Below, one piece after another: positions 28,947-37,547 of a stretch of DNA of 64,000 nucleotides. A program made the position numbers and the translations under genes. Under the pieces are notes generated by a model. It saw only the letters and a program-made list of their open reading frames with translations, had not been told where the DNA came from and searched no databases. Numbering within the stretch: position 1 is the first letter of the stretch; each line of letters begins with the position of its first letter. Location: positions 289,866 through 353,865 of the forward strand of contig JAGBEG010000017.1 of assembly GCA_017937095.1 (NCBI GenBank), given 5' to 3'. Source of the DNA: Roseburia sp. (lineage in GTDB: Bacteria > Bacillota > Clostridia > Lachnospirales > Lachnospiraceae).

Positions 28947-29005
28947 CAACAATTTTAAACAAATTTACAGAAAATAAACGTCTTTATGACGTGATATAAT
29001 GTACG

Positions 29006-29254
29006 CGAAGGCAATGAGCAGTGCCAGGGCGAGGCAGAACAAATCTCTGTGCTTGCACGGAGAGATTTGTTCTGGTGAGAACTGATAGGGCGAAAGCCCG
29101 TGAACGAGGGAGCTTTAGCTCCCGAGTGGGCACTGCGGAGTAGAAATCAGCGAGAACTGATAGGGCGAAAGCCCGTGAACGAGCGAACTATGTTCGCGAG
29201 TGGGCACTGCGGAGTAGAAACCAGCGAAAACTGCCAGGGCGACCGCCCGTGAAG
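29006..29254 (+). repeat. four tandem ~74-nt structured repeats upstream of addB
   Basis: Units start near 29006, 29080, 29155 and 29229 (periods 74, 75 and 74); the last is cut short by the addB start region. Units 2 and 3 share AACTGATAGGGCGAAAGCCC, then a variable hairpin, then GAGTGGGCACTGCGGAG and TAGAAA. The variable hairpin is GGGAGC/GCTCCC in unit 2 and GCGAAC/GTTCGC in unit 3, so both arms change together. Unit 1 carries a long hairpin (ACAAATCTC with GAGATTTGT) in that place, and unit 4 has GGGCGACCGCCC instead of GGGCGAAAGCCC. No coding frame explains the repetition. Confidence 0.8.
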
Positions 29255-29265
29255 TGGAGATCATT

Positions 29266-32200
29266 ATGTCATTACAGTTTATTTTTGGAAATTCAGGAAG
29301 CGGCAAATCCGATTATCTATATGAACATGTACTTGCCAAAGCAGCCGGGCATCCCAATCAGAATTTTCTGATTCTCGTGCCGGAGCAGTTCACGATGCAG
29401 ACGCAGCGGGAACTGGTGATGCGCGATGAGACACATGCAATTATGAATGTAGAGGTCTTAAGCTTTGCGAGACTTGCGTACCGCGTATTCGACGAGCTTG
29501 GACGGCAGGAGCTTGTCATCTTAGAGGAGACGGGAAAAAATCTTGTGCTGCGCAGGGTGGCGGAGGAGAAGAAGGGAGAGCTTTCCGTACTCGGCGGCAA
29601 TATGAACCGCATGGGTTATATCGGTGAAGTGAAGTCGTTTCTTTCCGAGCTGACCCAGTACAATATTACGCCGGAGGATCTGGAGCGCTTTTTGCAGGAT
29701 GAGAGCGTGGGGGAGGCGCTGCGCCTTAAATTATCGGATATTCTTGTGATGTATCGCGGCTTCCGCGATTACATGGAGGGGAAATATATCACGTCGGAGG
29801 AGGTGCTTTCCTTACTGTGCGAGGTCGCGGGGGAGTCGGATATCCTTAAGGGCAGTGTGATCGTGTTTGACGAGTTTACCGGATTTACGCCGATTCAGAA
29901 CCGGCTGATGCGGGAGTTCCTTGTCATAGCGGACCGGGTCATGGTGTCGGTCTCCATGGATACGAGGGAGGACTTTTACCACAGCAGGGGCGTGCATGAA
30001 CTGTTCGCCATGAGTAAGAAAACGGTCGCGGTTCTCTTAAAGATTGCGGAGGGCAGTTCTGTCCCAGTCGAAGAGCCAATTATATTAGAACCGGGAGAAA
30101 AGAAACGTTACCGCAATGCGCCGGAACTGTTTTTCATGGAGCAGAATCTGTTCCGTCCGTCTTATCGCAGATGGCAGGGGAAGGCGGAGCACATCAGCGT
30201 CACAGAGCTTAGAAGCCCAAGGGAGGAACTGATCTTTGTAGCGCGTGAAATCACAAGACTTGTGAGGGAGAAGGGATATCGTTACCGGGATTTTGCGGTC
30301 GTGACAGGAGATGTGCCGCAGTATGCCAGTTATGTGCCGGAGATTTTTGAACAGTACGCGATTCCCTGCTTTATCGACCAGACGAGAAATATTCTGTTCC
30401 ATCCGTTTCTGGAATTTATCCGGGCGGCGCTTGAGGTGGTGGAGAATGATTTCTCCTATCAGAGTATTTTCCGGTTCCTGCGGAGCGGTCTTAGCGGAAT
30501 CGAAGAAGCGGATATCGACCGTCTGGAAAATTATGTGCTGGCGAGGGGCATCCGCGGCAGGAAGCGCTGGAGTGAGCCGTGGACGTTTGTAATCTCACAG
30601 GGCGGCGCACAGGAGGACGCCGCAGAGGGGGAAATGCTTCGCTTAAATGCAATCAGGGAGCAGGCAGCGGAGATGTTTGCGCCGCTTTTTGAAGCGTTTC
30701 GTTCCGGTCATACGGTGGCGCAGCAGACCTACGCACTGTATCAGTTCATAGCGTCATTTGACGTTGAATCGAAGCTTGCGGCGAAGGAAGAAGAGTTCGA
30801 GGCGTATGCAAAGCAGAACAGGGCGGACCGGACAAGCGCGGCGAGGGCGCAGGAGTACGCGCAGATATATAAAATCGTCATGGATCTTCTCGATAAGGTG
30901 GCGGCGCTGCTCGGGGAGGAGGAGCTTTCCATCCGGGAGTATGGGGAGATTCTCGATGCGGGCTTTGATGCGGCGAAGGTCGGAATCATTCCGCCGGGCA
31001 ATGACCGGGTGACCATCGGAGACATTGAGCGCACCAGATTAAATCATGTGAAGGTACTCTTTTTTGTCGGCGTCAACGACGGCGTTGTGCCGAAGGCGGG
31101 AAATACCGGGAGCATTATCTCACAGTTCGAGCGCGAGAAGATGGCGGAGCATCATCTGGAGCTTGCGCCGGGGGCAAGGGAGAAAGTGTTCATTCAGAAG
31201 TTCTATCTGTATCTGAATATGACAAAGCCCTCCGACGCGCTTTATGTGACCTTTTCCAGAGTGGATGCAAACGGCAAGGCGCTGCGCAGGTCGTATCTTA
31301 TCGGAACGCTGCTTCATATGTTCCCGGAGCTTTCCGTGACGGTGCAGGGGGAGCGGACGGCGGCATGCGATATTTTAACGCCCAAAAGCGCTATGCAGTT
31401 TTTCTTAGAGGGACTGAACGATAAGCGTGCAGGAAACGGACAGGAGTTTGACAGGGAGGAAGAGGCGCTTTGGGAGGCGCTCTTAAACTGGTATCTTTCA
31501 AGCGCTGATTTTGCGGGGGAAGCGAAGCGGCTTTTGGATGCGGCATACCGGATTCACACCTCTGAGCCGATCGGGCACGCGGTGACGCGGGCGCTCTACG
31601 GAACGACGCTTGAGAACAGTGTCACGAGGTTAGAGCGTTTTGCAGCGTGTGCGTTCGCACATTATCTTCAGTATGGTCTTAAGCTTTCAGAGCGGAGATT
31701 ACAGGAATTTGCGAGTGTGGATATGGGAAATATCTATCACGAGGCGTTGGAGCACTTTGCGGAGCGCGTCCGGTCGTCGGAGTATACATGGTTTGATCTG
31801 CCGGAGAATGTGCGGGCGCAGTGGATCGAGGAGAGCATGGAAGATGCAATCGCGGGGGCGAAGAACGCGGGAGTCTTTGATGATGCGAGAAACCGCTATC
31901 TGCTTCTTCGGATGAAGGAGACGCTCCGGAAGACCGTGTGGGCGCTGACCGTACAGGTGCAGAAAGGAAAGTTCGTGCCGGAGGATTTCGAGGTATCCTT
32001 TTCGAGGGCGGATGATTTAAAGGCGATTCATTTTGCGCTGAGCGATGAGGAAAAAATGCGTCTTACGGGACGGATCGACCGCATCGACACTTATGAGACG
32101 GACGATAAGGTGTATGTGAAGGTCATCGATTACAAGTCGGGAAATACGAGCTTTTCCCTGCTGAATCTCTATCATGGATTGCAGCTTCAGCTTGTAGTCT

Positions 32201-32733
32201 ATCTGAATGCCGCGCTGGAGCTTATGGAGAAACGTCATCCGGGGAAGACGGCGGAGGCGGCGGGAATTTTCTATTATCATATTGAGAATCCGATGGTAGA
32301 CGGAACCGGAGCGGAGTCGGAGGAGGAAATCAGACAGGCGGTGCTTGCGCAGTTGAAGTTAAACGGTCTGGTCAATGAACAGCAGGAAGTTTACCGCGCG
32401 ATGGACACAGAGTTTTCGGGAAGCTCGGCGGTGATTCCGGTTGCGGAGAAGACGGACGGTTCGCTAAAGGCGACCTCCAAAACGGCAAGCGGGGAGGATT
32501 TCCTTGTGATGTCGGAGTATGTCAGAAAAACGATTGGGGATGCGGGCAGGCGGATGATGGACGGCGACGTTGCCATACAGCCGTATGAGCTGTCAGATCA
32601 TACGGGGTGCGATTATTGCCCTTATCATATGGTGTGCGGGTTTGACCCGCGTCTTTCGGGCTTTTCGTACCGGAAACTGGAGAAATTCGACAGTGAGGAT
32701 GCGATTCTTGCGCGGATGAGAGAGGAGAAATAA
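29266..32733 (+). CDS. addB: ATP-dependent helicase/deoxyribonuclease subunit B (AddB)
   Basis: This 1155-residue protein of the normal AddB length starts SLQFIFGNSGSGKSDYLYEHV with a Walker A motif. The C-terminal RecB-type nuclease domain shows GRIDRID and VIDYKSG. The four iron-sulfur cysteines of AddB are present: one in RFAACAFAHYL and three in CDYCPYHMVC. With AddA it resects double-strand breaks for RecA-dependent repair and degrades linear DNA. The ATG at 29266 follows GTGGAG. It overlaps addA by one base. Directly upstream is a series of tandem structured repeats. Confidence 0.96.
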   Translation: MSLQFIFGNSGSGKSDYLYEHVLAKAAGHPNQNFLILVPEQFTMQTQRELVMRDETHAIMNVEVLSFARLAYRVFDELGRQELVILEETGKNLVLRRVAEEKKGELSVLGGNMNRMGYIGEVKSFLSELTQYNITPEDLERFLQDESVGEALRLKLSDILVMYRGFRDYMEGKYITSEEVLSLLCEVAGESDILKGSVIVFDEFTGFTPIQNRLMREFLVIADRVMVSVSMDTREDFYHSRGVHELFAMSKKTVAVLLKIAEGSSVPVEEPIILEPGEKKRYRNAPELFFMEQNLFRPSYRRWQGKAEHISVTELRSPREELIFVAREITRLVREKGYRYRDFAVVTGDVPQYASYVPEIFEQYAIPCFIDQTRNILFHPFLEFIRAALEVVENDFSYQSIFRFLRSGLSGIEEADIDRLENYVLARGIRGRKRWSEPWTFVISQGGAQEDAAEGEMLRLNAIREQAAEMFAPLFEAFRSGHTVAQQTYALYQFIASFDVESKLAAKEEEFEAYAKQNRADRTSAARAQEYAQIYKIVMDLLDKVAALLGEEELSIREYGEILDAGFDAAKVGIIPPGNDRVTIGDIERTRLNHVKVLFFVGVNDGVVPKAGNTGSIISQFEREKMAEHHLELAPGAREKVFIQKFYLYLNMTKPSDALYVTFSRVDANGKALRRSYLIGTLLHMFPELSVTVQGERTAACDILTPKSAMQFFLEGLNDKRAGNGQEFDREEEALWEALLNWYLSSADFAGEAKRLLDAAYRIHTSEPIGHAVTRALYGTTLENSVTRLERFAACAFAHYLQYGLKLSERRLQEFASVDMGNIYHEALEHFAERVRSSEYTWFDLPENVRAQWIEESMEDAIAGAKNAGVFDDARNRYLLLRMKETLRKTVWALTVQVQKGKFVPEDFEVSFSRADDLKAIHFALSDEEKMRLTGRIDRIDTYETDDKVYVKVIDYKSGNTSFSLLNLYHGLQLQLVVYLNAALELMEKRHPGKTAEAAGIFYYHIENPMVDGTGAESEEEIRQAVLAQLKLNGLVNEQQEVYRAMDTEFSGSSAVIPVAEKTDGSLKATSKTASGEDFLVMSEYVRKTIGDAGRRMMDGDVAIQPYELSDHTGCDYCPYHMVCGFDPRLSGFSYRKLEKFDSEDAILARMREEK

Positions 32734-36794: not shown

Positions 36795-37547
36795 ATGAAT
36801 ATAAAATTGCAGGGAAATTATAGCTTGTCCGTAATGAATCAGCCTATGTTTGCAAAAAGGGGCTTAAAGAGTACGCAGGAAAAACTGGAGCGGCAGGCAA
36901 AATGCAATCGTCAGGTTGCTTTTTTTGAAAATCAGAAGGAAAATCTCAAAAAGATGGAATGCGATACGGTAGAGGAAATCGCCAGAAAGCTGGAAATGTT
37001 TCATACCTATGAAGAAGAAATCGCGGCGGCAAAGGCAGCATATAACAGCGAGCAGATGTTTCATATTATGGATGAGGCAGAGGAGATTGGCGAGAAAATT
37101 GCAGAAAGTGCAAAAAAAGCAGAGCCGAAGACACCGGAGGAGAGAAAAGAAGAGGCAGCGGAAGAGATAAGAGAAGAAGCGGCAGGAACCGGGAACGGCG
37201 AAGGAATCCTGGAAGAAATGCTCGAGAGTGCTGAACGGTTGGAAGAGGCGCAGCAGCAGGAGGCAGAGGACTTGTCAGAGCAGACGGCGGAGGACTTGTC
37301 AGAGCAGACGGCGGAGGACTTGCCAGAGCAGGAGGCAGAGGATTTGTCAAAGCGGAGGACAGAGGGACTGCCGCGGCAGAGGACAGAGGAACTGTCAGAG
37401 GAGAGAACGGAAGAAACGTCCGGGGAGAGGCTGGAAGAACTGTCCGGGGAGAGGCTGGAAGAATCGTCCGGTGAAAAGGTACAGGCGCTATCAGACGGGA
37501 GAAGCAAGGAGGAATACGATGAGAGTTACAACCCAGATGTTAAATGA
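36795..37547 (+). CDS. coiled-coil protein with nine tandem octapeptides
   Basis: I do not recognise this 250-residue protein. Residues 1-105 are mixed and helical (LKSTQEKLERQAKCNRQVAFFENQ), residues 106-156 are Glu/Ala/Lys-rich, and residues 157-228 are nine 8-residue repeats of the type xE-D/E-L-S-x-x-x (AEDLSEQT to LEESSGEK). The tail ends KEEYDESYNPDVK. No signal peptide. The ATG at 36795 follows AAAGGTGG. A loose flagellar-type -10 (TTCGATAT at 36764-36771) lies upstream with a poorly spaced TAAA. It overlaps the FliD-like gene by 29 bp, which suggests a common role. Confidence 0.75.
   Translation: MNIKLQGNYSLSVMNQPMFAKRGLKSTQEKLERQAKCNRQVAFFENQKENLKKMECDTVEEIARKLEMFHTYEEEIAAAKAAYNSEQMFHIMDEAEEIGEKIAESAKKAEPKTPEERKEEAAEEIREEAAGTGNGEGILEEMLESAERLEEAQQQEAEDLSEQTAEDLSEQTAEDLPEQEAEDLSKRRTEGLPRQRTEELSEERTEETSGERLEELSGERLEESSGEKVQALSDGRSKEEYDESYNPDVK
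37263..37478 (+). repeat. nine in-frame 24-bp repeats
   Basis: 216 bp made of nine 24-bp units, coding for octapeptides with consensus (A/T/L)E(D/E)LS(G/E)xx. The first two units are identical in protein and nearly so in DNA; later units diverge. The G/A-rich repeat leaves a second frame open as an Arg/Cys-rich shadow. Confidence 0.85.

Follow-up and report, generated by a model that had tools for sequence, protein, structure and literature searches.

A dispersed, probably insertion-like structured leader-RNA element upstream of addB in a Roseburia genome

The repeats directly upstream of addB in Roseburia sp. are probably a complete copy, followed by two partial duplications of its 3′ part, of a dispersed, non-coding, insertion-like structured leader-RNA element of Lachnospiraceae; this reading comes from comparisons of sequences and predicted folds. 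The element resembles Clostridiales-1 (RF01699) in layout and genomic habit but, by score, is a sub-threshold relative of it. Coordinates are those of the window, i.e. the whole 64 000-nt stretch that was analysed (contig JAGBEG010000017.1, positions 289,866 to 353,865). Numbers beginning with L and G denote loci and genomes, respectively; the window's own genome is G000.

Layout of the array

The sequence-only reading had described four tandem units of ∼74 nt. A tandem-repeat scan of the window does find a repeat with a 74-nt period (29077–29253; 2.4 copies, 88% matches), but unit 1 is not a 74-nt copy: it is the 5′ half of a full element which occupies 29010–29136, spans the former units 1 and 2, and consists of a closing stem (P1) around hairpins P2 to P4. 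The array is made up of this complete element, one duplication of its 3′ part and one shorter duplication. The long hairpin noticed in unit 1 was recovered as P2, but the repeat-unit boundary drawn there falls, as P1 closes inside unit 2. Unit 4 is indeed a copy, but a partial one, matching roughly the initial 40 nt of an additional copy; the array ends with it at 29253, just before GGAG. The features are as follows:

28992..29000, + strand: extended −10 box TGATATAAT of the addB promoter (conserved at a fixed distance in 23 own-genome copies and in 128 copies)
29002..29017, + strand: conserved 5′ end of the element, TNCGCGWARGCAATGA (column conservation, 128 copies)
29018..29024, + strand: 5′ arm of P1, GCAGTGC, pairing with 29130–29136 (alignment-derived fold)
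29025..29084, + strand: P2, a long hairpin with the conserved apex GTGCTTGCAC (fold, alignment)
29088..29099, + strand: P3, a conserved hairpin, GGGCGAAAGCCC (alignment)
29104..29127, + strand: P4, a variable hairpin, GGGAGC/GCTCCC (alignment)
29130..29136, + strand: 3′ arm of P1, GCACTGC, followed by the weakly conserved GGAGTAGAAA (alignment, column conservation)
29146..29210, + strand: partial tandem duplication, unit 3 (tandem-repeat scan, alignment)
29222..29253, + strand: shorter partial duplication, unit 4, with a mini-hairpin CAG/CTG and the P3-like GGGCGACCGCCC (alignment)
29256..29259, + strand: GGAG, the likely ribosome-binding site of addB (sequence)
29266..32733, + strand: addB, with its ATG at 29266 (Pfam ADDB_N, 7.9e-88; PDDEXK_1, 6.4e-44)

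The addB transcript is predicted to start at about 29006–29008; a promoter scan of the window that demands a −35 element did not list the extended −10 box. In unit 3 the position of P2 is taken by a mini-hairpin (ATCAG/CTGAT), which is followed by P3, by P4 (GCGAAC/GTTCGC) and by another 3′ arm of P1. An alignment of units 2 and 3 (72 letter pairs) shows six mismatches and one internal gap; five of the six mismatches, as well as the gap, fall within P4. The paired change that had been pointed out between these units is confirmed by the alignment: the passage from GGGAGC/GCTCCC to GCGAAC/GTTCGC amounts to two compensated pairs and a new loop.

Two kinds of open reading frame were considered and rejected: a tiny conserved one starting at the ATG of CAATGAGC, the length of which, judged by eye, ranges from about six codons to read-through, and those running through the element (L017, L020 and others), which were taken as run-ins from an in-frame GTG. 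Elsewhere in the window (37127–37471) there are 24-nt tandem repeats; this period, a multiple of three, fits a coding repeat.

Conservation of the fold

The sense strand of the block folds better than its shuffled versions (z = −5.4; none of 200 as good) and so does the reverse strand (z = −5.8). In a MAFFT alignment of 21 own-genome copies, 94.7% of cells are paired according to a structure derived from that same alignment, with two-sided changes in 25 of the 33 pairs; such changes are also seen in three pairs of P1. Shuffling this alignment lowers the paired fraction to 81.6% (none of 500 shuffles as good) and sliding it to 34–48%. The 92 distinct rows taken from named genomes give a paired fraction of 91.7%, again with two-sided changes in 25 of 33 pairs, in an alignment that leans towards the model because its rows were fitted to it and that also takes in tandem partials and one or more reverse-strand matches of P2; none of 500 shuffles reached the observed value, and slid versions gave 31–50%. 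G-U cells outnumber A-C cells on the sense strand (34:6 and 77:30), an excess which points to that strand, and there are conserved unpaired letters among the copies. Selection on folding, which had been proposed from the tandem copies, is supported by the covariation in the 21-copy and 92-row alignments and by the predominance of G-U over A-C. A search with a covariance model had been suggested as the means to refute it, by failing to find the same stems with covariation in any other genome; both the stems and their covariation do recur in other genomes.

Exchange of whole hairpins

As a caution, paired changes in tandem copies can arise by the swapping of whole hairpins between copies. The P4 of unit 3 is letter for letter the same as that of another own-genome locus (L013), so that the paired change may reflect a swap between copies and not stepwise compensation; this weakens it as proof of stepwise compensation, but not the fold itself. 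P2 is identical or nearly so at some unrelated loci (L010 and L013; L024 and L025; L009 and L033, nearly), and it differs at three of five orthologous sites of G000 and its relative G020: L022/L084 (62% identity), L011/L083 (74%) and L023/L080, where P2 is 72% identical although the upstream flank and the P3–P4–P1 portion both reach 98%. Counter-examples are L020/L076 (100%) and L010/L077 (93%). The comparison covered 15 of 22 intended locus pairs. Mean P2 identity has the same value, 0.70, among own-genome copies and between them and those of G020, and there is thus no general homogenisation.

Alternatively, the paired changes could have arisen in the DNA itself, through conversion between copies or through repair templated by a hairpin, the fold having no role as RNA. 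The L023/L080 pair, in which one entire hairpin has changed and its surroundings are almost constant, the match between unit 3 and L013, and the good folding of the reverse strand all favour such a process; we nevertheless judge it improbable in view of the two-sided changes in P1, the conserved unpaired letters, the excess of G-U over A-C and the sense orientation reported below.

A multicopy family

It had been asked whether the unit occurs at other loci, and it does: a covariance model built from the 21 copies finds 34 matches in the own genome, tandem partials included, and also hits 19 of the 59 others searched, 17 of the 19 being of the same genus and several having a single weak match only. 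With blastn, 29 own-genome matches were obtained, a figure that counts inverted matches of the palindrome. When named genomes were scanned with a pattern, at least 107 stretches were obtained; 80 loci, themselves chosen by an exact pattern, are among the matches listed, and Parablautia intestinalis and Hespellia stercorisuis are among the species hit. The labels of the listed matches are mostly Lachnospiraceae, Roseburia, Clostridium or Clostridia, the others being, as recorded, two Gastranaerophilales, one Bacillus and four unnamed bacteria. Tandem elements were found in L112 (three model matches) and L084 (two); in L093, further tandem copies can be seen by eye where the model lists only one. 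The element had no match in phage and plasmid records searched with blastn, nor in viral contigs searched with one exact pattern.

Positional counts were made on 128 copies (loci L009–L033 and L076–L222) parsed with a pattern comprising the canonical 5′ end, P3 and a complementary 3′ arm of P1, repeats with identical flanks being dropped. Odd copies are under-represented in this set because the pattern drops those that fail it, and the copies are not independent, orthologues being included; genes were called by a custom script. Partial 3′ duplications are present in 40 of the 128 copies, as against 0.7 after shuffling of single letters, and the array in the window therefore represents a common state.

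Genomic position and orientation

Directly upstream of the element there is a −10 box in 93 of the 128 copies, a stop codon in 19, a T-run in 6 and something else in 10, about half of which look by eye like weaker −10 boxes. The stop codons belong to genes on the same strand, and in some operon copies the element itself provides the stop codon (L028 vs L258: ATG AAA TAA, ATG CAA TGA). Within 600 nt downstream, the next gene is on the same strand in 108 copies and on the opposite strand in 4, none being called in 16, i.e. it is in sense in 108 of the 112 copies where a gene was called; a separate count over the 80 named-genome loci listed gave 65, 5 and 10, respectively. Ordinary MITEs would not usually show an orientation so close to strictly sense.

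A −10 box of its own at a fixed distance is what one would expect of a multicopy gene for a trans-acting small RNA, and Rfam assigns to RF01699 the type 'Gene; sRNA'. Against this stands the scan of the window, which found no sense-strand terminator between P1 and addB, the sole sense-strand terminator-like site lying within P2. Moreover, the next gene starts at a median distance of 85.5 nt after P1, and 19 of the 128 copies are placed at a stop codon; we regard a small RNA gene as very unlikely.

Two individual neighbourhoods may be recorded here. At L158 (4423–4512) the element lies behind a possible T-box leader (GGTGGTACCGCG and a terminator) and upstream of a gene that, from its start, is presumably one for a valyl-tRNA synthetase-like protein; Rfam at the gathering threshold did not call a T-box at this locus. 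At L103 (2293–2577), a group II intron (RF02001, RF01998) starts ∼160 nt behind a copy of the element.

Presence, absence and marks of insertion

Orthologous sites of eleven own-genome loci were sought in four relatives; 28 matches were listed, 19 of which were examined by eye, the weaker ones being left aside. No trace of the element was seen in 12 (L254, L258–L263, L265, L266, L269–L271), remnants in 4 (L256, L264, L267, L268), another kind of insert, immediately following the same TATAATG, in 2 (L253, L257) and an intact element in 1 (L255); at L266 and L268 the downstream side alone was aligned. The covariance model scored L255 at 54 bits and, weakly, L264 (18 bits) and L267 (11.5 bits), and nothing else in these stretches. 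At the pcrA site, the element is missing from three relatives (L254, L259, L266), each of which has a −10-like box; most simply, then, the element was gained in the lineage of the window. Internal deletions have also led to losses within the own genome (L272, L274).

Another repeat family, of smaller size (TATAATGTCGTTAGACATTATACCCGCC...GGCGAATGCCATGGACGCTGTGCGTCTATGG), likewise begins directly at TATAATG. It was noticed in the 3′ flank of L009, where the element lies at 1998–2125 on the − strand, and at L257 in G020, where it occupies a promoter that carries the element in the window's genome; nine matches, query included, were counted in the own genome. At L253 there is yet another insert at a TATAATG-type site.

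Exact flanking direct repeats of at least 12 nt are present in 7 of the 128 copies, compared with 0.45 expected from swapped flank pairings, and are absent from the remaining 121. In four copies (L138, L140, L178, L222) both flanks carry the −10 region as a clean 12–15-nt repeat, which contains the −10 box and ends at the 5′ boundary of the element. The other three may owe their match to a different repeat (L009, L189) or to a tandem start; that of L096 runs into the element. On their 3′ side, 15 of the 128 copies have an extended −10 box (mean of 3.7 and maximum of 10 after single-letter shuffling).

No Y1 (IS200/RAYT-type) transposase was found in the own genome (94.57% complete), although 15 of the 40 genomes searched, own included, have one; mobilisation by a RAYT/IS200 enzyme was rejected on this account. 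An autonomous copy was also sought in the own genome through the ends of the element. Of 27 sites with the 5′ end, 7 were not model hits and appeared by eye to be remnants or end fragments (3) and chance matches (4); the search returned known copies, remnants (L272, L274 and possibly L277) and apparent chance matches, and no transposase-bearing copy was noticed among them. No mobilising enzyme was identified.

Some sites are common to distant species, namely those before a sua5-like and an exonuclease-like gene (56–90% protein identity), and this sharing fits cis-regulatory conservation as well. The element could accordingly be a leader read by a ligand or a protein, regulating housekeeping genes throughout the genome and copied by ordinary duplication followed by selection. 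Its near-strict sense orientation, its place in 5′ UTRs, its conserved unpaired letters and its sharing between species before mutS2, argS, aroA and the sua5-like gene all agree with such a role. However, presence flips between related species while the promoter stays, the downstream genes have no evident common pathway, some copies have flanking direct repeats and 4 of 112 face a neighbouring gene on the opposite strand; on balance we find this explanation unlikely.

Relation to addB and to the other downstream genes

The sequence-only reading had seen in the repeats either a DNA array read by a protein or a structured RNA of the addBA leader that regulates the recombination nuclease. A leader RNA is retained, the element lying behind an extended −10 box on the same strand as addB, but regulation specific to addBA is not. 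AddB was found in 39 of 40 genomes of the genus, own included, and the covariance model found the element at none of the 29 other addB loci searched, which come from 29 of the 38 other genomes, one match being at chance level (E = 0.16). In G020, the closest relative (N-terminal part of AddB 90% identical), the same TATAAT is followed by a shrunken remnant upstream of addB; 20 of 30 addB upstream regions, own included, were judged by eye.

Ten proteins encoded behind other own-genome copies were searched against NCBIfam, and eight exceeded the cut-offs: mutS2, rsmA (the second gene behind its copy), argS, nrdD, truA, aroA, the acetolactate synthase small subunit and threonylcarbamoyladenylate synthase. 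A pcrA fragment reached 885 of the 911 bits demanded, and the tenth protein resembles nitrite/sulphite reductases below every cut-off. These genes share no evident pathway. A dedicated addBA switch, as first proposed, would suit a feature that lies directly upstream of addB, in sense, and ends at its ribosome-binding site; given the 0 of 29 other addB loci, the mere remnant in the closest relative and the same element before many unrelated genes, we consider it almost certainly wrong, and a cis-regulator specific to addBA was rejected. The best reading is that the element at addB is a passenger leader in this species.

Proposed explanation

We propose that the element spreads as a non-autonomous insertion element, mobilised by a putative enzyme, that it preferentially enters, in one direction, sites immediately following a −10 box, and that insertion would duplicate ∼12–15 bp of the target. 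An insertion at such a place would leave the upstream promoter whole and turn the element into the 5′ UTR of the next gene. The folded leader might then affect how long its mRNA lasts or how well that mRNA is translated, for instance through protection of the 5′ end; this is a tentative suggestion drawn from position and fold, and one that we would sooner doubt than assert.

Comparison with known systems

MITEs and REP-RAYT elements are like the present element in being non-coding, base-paired and intergenic, and flanking direct repeats are found in a few of its copies. Unlike in either, no terminal inverted repeats were seen in the element beyond the P1 arms, which are inverted repeats themselves, its orientation is fixed and no Y1 transposase was found in its own genome. 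MITEs are understood here as defined in the background passage of PMC3049150. The BOX elements of Streptococcus pneumoniae are described in the same source as short, interspersed and modular, of variable length and with target-site duplications, and they are predicted to fold when transcribed, as is the element; the fixed place behind a −10 box or a stop codon belongs to the element and is not described for BOX in the parts of PMC3049150 that were consulted.

At the gathering threshold, Rfam has no match in the window. Below it, mir-255, rli60, Lnt, mir-3149 and n00280 were set aside as chance matches or generic long hairpins. RF01699 aligns to the window over the full model (1–166), with 30.9 bits and E = 5.7e-5, which is below its gathering score of 48 bits, the formal threshold for membership; the helix layout is shared over this length with parts of the model skipped. 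In a set of 18 loci, six of which are listed at E ≤ 1, the best is L026, with 41.6 bits and E = 1e-5, again over the full model; none of 18 further loci reaches the gathering score, and a search of the own genome gave one match, at E = 3e-13, that is not over the cut-off. Within the order, RF01699 exceeds the cut-off in 28 of 196 genomes, and 14 of the 37 genomes with any match have at least 10 at E ≤ 0.001, at most 13 candidates being scored per genome. RF01699 was introduced in 2010 in a paper (PMC2864571) that lists it as probably an RNA and probably neither cis-regulatory nor a riboswitch. In the open-licence literature searched, no description of the present variant, or of RF01699 as mobile, was found.

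Both the element and RF01699 have a closing stem, TGCCAG, a long hairpin with a GCTTGC apex and further hairpins, and both are multicopy. They also share a genomic habit, starting at stop codons, −10 boxes or T-runs with the next gene mostly in sense: among the 23 RF01699 loci returned, the next gene is on the same strand in 19, on the opposite strand in 1 and lacking in 3, 11 have their start between −10 and +3 nt relative to an upstream stop codon and, by eye, three lie behind a −10 box and about six behind the T-rich end of a terminator. The core with GATAGGGCGAA distinguishes the element from RF01699, and P1, which has one fairly constant sequence in the element, appears by eye to be locus-specific in RF01699 copies. 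The 5′ arm of P1 in RF01699 often holds or adjoins the upstream stop codon (L281, L282, L283, L286, L290, L292, L293, L297, L299 and L300), so that folding could depend on translation of the upstream gene.

It is conceivable, though we rate it as rather unlikely, that RF01699 and the variant form one superfamily of mobile leader-RNA elements, inserting directionally behind functional −10 boxes, with duplication of the −10 region, or at stop codons and terminators, each insertion giving a host mRNA a structured 5′ end; they would in effect be transposable 5′ UTRs whose insertion is aimed at promoters. If both are mobile behind −10 boxes in sense, their scattered, gene-unspecific distribution would be explained, many housekeeping mRNAs of gut Lachnospiraceae would carry acquired structured leaders, and they would provide a clear-cut system in which to test how an insertion is directed to promoters.
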